Below are positions 22,941-31,398 of a stretch of DNA of 39,987 nucleotides, piece by piece. The position numbers and the translations under genes are program-made. The notes below the pieces were generated by a model. The model was not told the DNA's origin and ran no database searches. It saw nothing but the letters and a program-made list of their open reading frames with translations. Origin of the DNA: a bacterium (GTDB lineage Bacteria > Patescibacteriota > Microgenomatia > Daviesbacterales > UBA10151). Location: assembly GCA_030647265.1 (NCBI GenBank), contig JAUSJM010000008.1, positions 1-39,987 on the forward strand, read 5' to 3'. The stretch's first letter is position 1, and the number at the start of each line of letters is the position of its first letter.

Positions 22941-23012
<72 letters not shown>

Positions 23013-23014
23013 CA

Positions 23015-23055
23015 ATGAAATTGAGCTTGGCTTGTCCAAGCGCAAATTTCATTTT
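23015..23055 (+). terminator. putative intrinsic terminator after tRNA-Lys
   Basis: ATGAAATT-ga-GCTTGG-cttgt-CCAAGC-gca-AATTTCAT followed by TTT. Confidence 0.65.
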
Positions 23056-23071
23056 GCGGTCGGCAAGGGAA

Positions 23072-23165
23072 AGAACTACACGCCCCTCACAGAGGTAAGG
23101 GGGTTCGATAACGAGCGTAGCGAATTACAAGATCTCTGAGCGAAGCAAGAAGTAGACTTAATCCC
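23072..23165 (+). repeat. 94-bp tRNA-linked repeat core, copy 1 (followed by a tRNA-Lys 3'-end duplicate at 23160-23176)
   Basis: agaactacacgcccctcacagaggtaagggggttcgataacgagCgtagcgaattacaagatctctgagcgaagcaagaagtagacttaatccc; one mismatch to copy 2. Confidence 0.97.
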
Positions 23166-23178
23166 ACCCGACTCACAC

Positions 23179-23252
23179 GGCGCGTTCGTCTAGTGGCCTA
23201 GGACACTGGGTTTTCATCCCAGGAATCAGGGGTTCGACTCCCCTACGCGCTA
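23179..23252 (+). tRNA. tRNA-Glu (anticodon TTC)
   Basis: ggcgcgttcgtctagtggcctaggacactgggttTTCatcccaggaatcaggggttcgactcccctacgcgcta; cloverleaf stems pair. Confidence 0.95.
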
Positions 23253-23265
23253 CAAACAAAAATAT

Positions 23266-23289
23266 TCCCACCTTGTGTGGGATTTTTTT
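23266..23289 (+). terminator. intrinsic terminator after tRNA-Glu
   Basis: TCCCAC-cttgt-GTGGGA followed by TTTTTTT. Confidence 0.8.
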
Positions 23290-23309
23290 GTTTCTGCCTG
23301 TGTTGTGAG

Positions 23310-23403
23310 AGAACTACACGCCCCTCACAGAGGTAAGGGGGTTCGATAACGAGTGTAGCGAATTACAAGATCTCTGAGCGAAGCAAGAAGTAGACTTAAT
23401 CCC
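23310..23403 (+). repeat. 94-bp tRNA-linked repeat core, copy 2 (followed by a tRNA-Glu 3'-end duplicate at 23400-23414)
   Basis: Same 94-mer as copy 1 except C/T at 23354; ends in tcccctacgcgctac, identical to 23239-23253. Confidence 0.97.
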
Positions 23404-23419
23404 CTACGCGCTACCAAAG

Positions 23420-31319: not shown

Positions 31320-31398
31320 GTTTTTTGAATCCTTTCAAAAAAGGCCAGGTTCTGCAAGCGAGTAGTAAAATATCTCATACTGCGAGCGAAGCAGGTCA

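Follow-up and report, generated by a model that had tools for sequence, protein, structure and literature searches.

Short palindromic repeats tend to be regarded as passive debris between genes, and copies of a tRNA 3' end repeated downstream of the tRNA gene, as found here, are known from the rtT repeats of Escherichia coli tyrT, a single locus; to our knowledge, no covarying hairpin shared among many tRNAs is known for rtT. Several other known systems invite comparison. In the insertion sequence IS608, each hairpin has at its 5' foot a tetranucleotide that base-pairs with the site of cleavage, the element inserts 3' to TTAC, and retargeting has been engineered through about 8 bp of additional transposon–target pairing (PMC5934647). 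REP sequences are mobilized by TnpA-REP (RAYT) transposases in systems of which the motif GTAG is a feature (PMC8266576), and Rickettsia palindromic elements (RPE) are small palindromic elements that occur in frame in unrelated genes (PMC10969869). Here we describe a family of short units from uncultured Patescibacteria that resembles each of these systems in part and belongs clearly to none of them.

The window, a stretch of 39,987 nt that is contig C30 of a 785-kb genome, contains two near-identical cores of 94 bases, one behind tRNA-Lys (TTT; 22941–23013) and one behind tRNA-Glu (TTC; 23179–23253), both called by ARAGORN and Rfam and, like all features given below for the window, on the forward strand. 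The cores (23072–23165 and 23310–23403) lie in a direct repeat of 97 nt (23069–23165 and 23307–23403; 98% identity, spacing 238). The tRNA-proximal stretches of the two units align poorly and carry different terminator-like hairpins, a Lys-specific one at 23011–23056 (inverted repeat I3, arms 23011–23022 and 23045–23056) and a Glu-specific one with a T run at 23254–23293 (inverted repeat I1, arms 23254–23268 and 23279–23293). A sequence-only reading had singled out this combination of a conserved distal core and dissimilar tRNA-proximal flanks, and was right to do so; the internal pairing potential it noticed, CCTC-ACA-GAGG and CCCCT...AGGGG, is likewise present in both cores. The first of these pairings, hairpin H0 (23085–23095 in copy 1, read from the sequence), has a form that is conserved in units of the terminator type. 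The reading's suggestion that core motifs resemble palindromic repeats elsewhere in the window is poorly supported: apart from the cores, the window contains a single GAGCGAAGC, at 31384, and a single GCGAAGCGAG, at 2402.

What that reading missed is the feature that defines the unit. A second copy of the tRNA's own 3' end begins at the base directly after each core and runs from T-loop A58 to the acceptor end. In the Lys unit, the proximal, functional end (22997–23014) recurs at 23160–23177 with 94% identity (direct repeat D2), and the T-loop junction TCCG|A58 at 22996/22997 is an insertion-type site. In the Glu unit, the functional end (23237–23256) and the distal copy (23398–23417) form direct repeat D3, which, aligned from A58, pairs 23239–23256 with 23400–23417 at 94% identity. 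About 145 nt separate each tRNA from its second 3' end, without a gene between them. Each core further contains a left-end hairpin, H1, read from the sequence and imperfect in both copies (TAACGAGCGTAGCGAATTA at 23109–23127, directly after TTCGA, and TAACGAGTGTAGCGAATTA at 23347–23365), and a right-end hairpin, H2, of the form AAG-AT-C...G-TAGA-CTT plus a terminal A (23129–23160 and 23367–23398). Folded as single DNA sequences, the window copies do no better than shuffles (z of -0.72 and +0.22), and the structural evidence therefore rests on the family rather than on these two copies.

Further copies were sought with a covariance model, R1, built from the last 31 nt of the core with flanks, that is, from H2 (ACAAG-AT-C...G-TAGN-CTTA), which scores the two window copies at 53 and 53.9 bits. 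About 80 matches (82) were found in 13 of 45 genomes of the bacterial family, with 1 to 39 copies each (39 in G007, eight in G012, seven each in G008 and G023, six in G002, and five in G000). Among the 329 genomes of the class, the same search gave only two weak matches outside the family, which were unsupported on inspection. The window's own genome has a third unit after tRNA-Glu(CTC) (C28:918–1005), whose core has diverged and which is likewise accompanied by the end of its tRNA. The same genome has remnants or variants behind tRNA-fMet, Leu(TAG), and Phe, and further units lie at typA (C31, L143) and within a pilin gene (C1, L144). Among relatives, the best matches at the DNA level stand after Met, Thr, Arg, Ala, Leu, Val, Lys, and other tRNAs and are mostly followed by the 3' end of that same tRNA; tRNA-Lys of G007 is followed by a tandem of two units, and the terminator of the second resembles that of the Lys unit of G023. 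In G007, 19 of the 45 tRNAs are followed by a copy of their own 3' end at a distance of no more than 350 nt, compared with 0.02 in the shuffled control. Of the 39 H2 matches in this genome, 14 fall within 350 nt after a tRNA, where 0.39 would be expected. Units are mostly about 60–160 bp long and occur in very different genes; some have no detectable gene-end duplicate, and free-standing copies with no nearby gene end also occur.

An Rfam scan returned only tRNAs at the gathering score and nothing meaningful at E values up to 5. Matches to a pattern of the H2 consensus were numerous in viral and genome collections, but the covariance model placed almost all of them at chance level, and the high scores came only from contigs of this bacterial family. 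A triple pattern match (L440) lies in an apparent protein-coding repeat, and phage records gave only a 21-nt chance match. We found no description of such elements in these bacteria in the open-licence literature. The elements form a coherent family with exact ends and gene-end duplication that is, as far as we could find, undescribed.

The structure of H2 is strongly supported by covariation. Across 83 matches, in an alignment that was fitted to the model and with which 17 MAFFT-aligned sequences agree, there are 182 double changes compared with 63 in shuffles, a value reached in 0 of 500 shuffles. Pairing is kept in 89% of cells while hairpin length varies, and sliding controls score far lower, leaving slid pairings unsupported. 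The inner stem switches between A-T (50) and G-C (30) and between G-C (74) and C-G (8) without intermediates, and G-U accounts for only 7 of about 714 paired cells, a scarcity that could also reflect the model's selection of matches. The apical loops have 3 nt in 39 of 59 cases, the commonest being CGAAG, CAAAG, CGCAG, and CGTAG; GNA loops closed by C-G are very stable in DNA. At the foot of the hairpin, AAG pairs with the terminal CTT, with the covariants AAG/CTT, AGG/CCT, and AAC/GTT. The strict Watson–Crick pairing and the GNA triloops, together with the opposite orientation of units at tRNA and protein genes, lead us to favour folded DNA over RNA.

A second pairing defines the left end. 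In 47 of 80 units, compared with 3–4 expected, the strand just before H2, which we call a, matches a perfect inverted partner (a') that lies upstream and measures 6 bp or more. In most cases this partner begins right after Y-N-A (A in 55 of 59 and a pyrimidine at -3 in 55 of 59), and the left stem is complementary to the gene end that the unit carries. In the smallest units, a' and a form the short hairpin H1; in others, the loop between them holds either the start of a protein gene, ribosome-binding site included, or a tRNA 3' end, which may or may not have a terminator. On the right, the duplicated gene end starts at one fixed base after H2: in 36 units, A stands at position 0 in all 36 and C two bases before the start of the duplicate in 34, although most of these are tRNA T-loops (TTCR57|A58), which share those bases anyway. 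Protein sites such as GAGCA|ATGATGG obey the same rule. The layout can thus be written YNA | a' ... a - C - AAG-H2-CTT-A | b, with the exact cut ambiguous by one base because the A is shared. A gene interrupted by a unit whose left end is a gene end is nevertheless complete.

Units are not tRNA-specific, a point that the sequence-only reading lacked. Reversed units precede gatB, typA, lepA, rpsU, and ftsZ (names from our own reading of the translated starts) and lie inside type IV pilin genes. At protein genes, the order is an initial copy of the gene start that leads into the element, then a ribosome-binding site, and then the complete gene. The two copies of these gene starts differ in 37 synonymous and 11 nonsynonymous codons of 74, a synonymous fraction of 0.77 (random, 0.15; maximum, 0.37); the mainly synonymous differences imply that both copies evolved apart as functional gene starts and were joined later. 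In six units (two each at typA, lepA, and gatB), the frame of the truncated copy stays open across the element and ends in the ATGA with which the complete gene begins, and the ftsZ unit overlaps its complete gene in a similar way. Four pilin genes have the element inside the prepilin leader, where the reading frame passes through it. Truncated gene copies at L143, L139, L141, L129, L151, L014, and L100 give short reading frames with I-SLL... or I-GLP..., which continue DLV or DPV from the reversed H2 and several of which stop exactly on the complete gene's ATGA.

We think it probable that the cores are copies of a very small nonautonomous mobile element that acts through folded single-stranded DNA. 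The patchy distribution (13 of 45 genomes) and the tandem units at tRNA-Lys of G007 count in favour of such an element, whose insertion and movement we infer from the anatomy of the units. A transposase or recombinase would excise the folded strand and insert it at Y-N-A sites, chiefly in tRNA T-loops (TTCRA) and at sites resembling them near the starts of genes. Where an inserted unit brings along a functional gene end, it would survive, tolerated because this end repairs the interrupted gene. With less confidence, we suggest that strand a may help to guide a unit to the same gene end elsewhere by DNA–DNA pairing. That the units would amount to DNA-guided homing to the ends of essential genes, in which an element of 60–160 bp with no protein gene of its own pairs a strand with its target and repairs the gene with a replacement end from another genome, is a doubtful extension.

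In this reading the element would act like members of the IS200/IS605 group, to which IS608 belongs, and their nonautonomous derivatives, or like REP elements. The units share with the IS200/IS605 group two (sub)terminal hairpins and lack terminal inverted repeats, as that group does. Apparent insertion 3' of a short, fixed sequence may be a further likeness, and so may the right end, where a guide-like AAG at the 5' foot of the hairpin pairs with the terminal CTT; the covariants at that position are what guide–cleavage pairing would give. The units differ in that no tnpA lies inside or linked to them, the left stem starts at the very end with no guide 5' of it, and the left end is a host gene end of arbitrary sequence. 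The Y-N-A target is also less specific than a tetra- or pentanucleotide, and the gene end is duplicated, perhaps as carried cargo. With REP sequences, the units have in common that they are short palindromes with a conserved GTAG at the hairpin foot, and their genomes have Y1 transposase genes of RAYT size; however, GTAG is on the 3' side rather than at the 5' foot, and the units lie inside or at genes and duplicate gene ends. Y1 genes (PF01797) are found in 41 of the 45 genomes and are absent from H2-bearing G017; none is adjacent to units, and a Y1 transposase was rejected as a linked partner. The only Y1 gene of G007 (C3, about 190980–191850; RAYT-size) is flanked by a different palindrome (GCAAGGTGACGCCTTGCGTGGAG), and no H2 was found nearby, the sequence beyond being masked as N. 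Since no Y1 gene is linked to units, one H2-bearing genome has none, and a left guide is lacking, we do not claim membership in IS200/IS605 or TnpA-REP. In-frame palindromic insertions, seen in the four pilin genes and six gene-start units, recall RPE. Our units, with a core of about 50 nt, appear to differ from RPE in sequence and occur in a different phylum; they moreover duplicate the end of the target gene and enter tRNA T-loops.

The same hairpin mobility might be catalyzed not by a Y1 transposase but by a hairpin-reading tyrosine recombinase (Xer or an integron-like integrase), with strand a plus the target stem acting as the R box of attC, and we regard this as unlikely. A joined unit (a-H2-a') would form one long hairpin with the junction inside the stem, as in attC, and the single tyrosine recombinase of G000 is Xer-type, of the kind found in all 45 genomes. 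However, the attC consensus GTTRRRY/RYYYAAC is absent from the units, whose H2 consensus (ACAAGATC...GTAGACTTA) contains no R boxes; no integron integrase was identified among the tyrosine recombinases found, G000 having only the Xer-type one; and every genome has Xer, whereas the units are patchy. Tyrosine recombinases as a class occur in all 45 genomes without any correlation with units and were dropped as a partner, and no transposase or recombinase was found linked to units. We give somewhat less credence, and would call it unlikely, to the idea that the units are scars, that is, solo attachment sites left by larger islands, since deleted, that encoded an integrase and had their att sites at tRNA ends and gene starts. 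Such islands are typically recognized by a duplicated tRNA 3' end, and the units share with integrative elements at tRNA 3' ends the restoration of the tRNA by a carried 3' end, the second 3' end left behind, and tandem accretion. In the window, the two 3' ends have no integrase gene between them, the exceptions to this gene-free spacing being two loci that speak for islands: a unit (L147) behind tRNA-Trp that includes a glycosyltransferase gene and has an identical tRNA 3' half on its far side, and an 11.7-kb stretch of G007 running from tRNA-Glu to an H2 with duplicate and containing large serine recombinase and type I restriction genes. Against scars, most units are about 60–160 bp, some 1% of the usual size, and lie in very different genes, including recoded starts of protein genes; complementarity to the carried gene end, as seen in the left stem, is not required of an attachment arm; and the hairpins differ in length without loss of pairing. 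A separate T-loop-like GGTTCGAAT in G007 stands before the terminator of the H2 unit, and this sequence near the far end suggests an island integrated at the same T-loop. We therefore treat the G007 stretch as an independent insertion at that site, and it was rejected as an autonomous parent of the units.

A functional RNA, either a tRNA trailer or a 5'-UTR regulator whose structure is conserved for its role as RNA, would account for the strong covariation, the position of units beside translation-related genes, and the reading frames that couple to gene starts; it seems quite improbable, because orientation is opposite at tRNA and protein genes, units after tRNAs often stand behind a terminator-like hairpin, G-U pairs are almost absent, and free-standing copies occur away from gene ends. 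A simple tandem duplication or gene conversion of the tRNA region, with no mobile element, would fit adjacent window units that are 98% identical; it is hardly credible as a full explanation, since the flanks do not match and the same unit, with a fixed boundary, recurs after many other tRNA species and before unrelated protein genes, yet it likely caused the identity of this one pair. The sequence-only interpretation is partly right: its claim that the region is no simple tandem duplication, and is recently mobile or gene converted, holds, and the further copies and strong structural covariation whose absence it had named as telling against it do exist. The near-identity (99%) of the window pair most likely reflects local copying from the Glu unit to the Lys unit, in which a 94-nt core would have been overwritten from 238 bp away. 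This direction, drawn from two copies, is argued by the core strand AGGGG, ahead of a T-loop-like GTTCG, which pairs through 5 bp with the Glu duplicate (CCCCT) but through only 3 bp with the Lys duplicate (CCCAC), and by the Lys-unit spacer, terminator hairpin included, which resembles the tRNA-Lys spacer of another genome, G007 (L028).

With exact boundaries, units of the family sit at the ends of ftsZ, lepA, typA, gatB, rpsU, and tRNA genes, and the genes stay intact through a duplicated end with recoded codons. If the units are indeed mobile, a selfish element would enter essential genes of tiny genomes harmlessly and gene ends would spread between species, raising the questions of which enzyme reads the hairpins and whether DNA–DNA pairing, so far engineered in IS608, sets the target. 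The family also accounts for many repeated tRNA 3' ends that would be annotated as pseudo-tRNAs in these genomes.

Several further loci combine units with other sequences. At L147 (G023:C20:19700–22200), the region from tRNA-Trp to a second, identical copy of its 3' half (38 nt) contains a GT2-like glycosyltransferase gene. A 52-nt H1-H2 unit occupies the T-loop of this second copy, and the locus may be a one-gene cassette. Just downstream of tRNA-Val(CAC) in G023 (L029, C24), a tRNA-like sequence has a hairpin (TACCCGTTCAAATTTTGCGAAGCAAAACTTGTTCGGGTA) inserted where the D-loop would be, and after it comes a T-loop H1-H2 unit. In the 11.7-kb stretch of G007 (L186, C3:562316–574150), the serine recombinase gene runs into tRNA-Glu, the type I restriction-modification genes lie within, and the stretch ends shortly before an H2 unit. 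About 16 of the 22 non-tRNA units of G007 have their top strand on the C-rich (lagging) strand; the number is small and confounded by gene orientation, so this suggestive bias was not kept as a signal of replication strand. G007 also has a second unit class downstream of Ser, Met, Gly, Lys, and Lys tRNAs (C3, 81222, 95356, 475937, 529393, and 557927), in which GGTTCA-ACTCCGA..loop..GAGGAGTGATY|ATCCC shows the same tRNA-end duplication as the H2 units with a different right-end hairpin.
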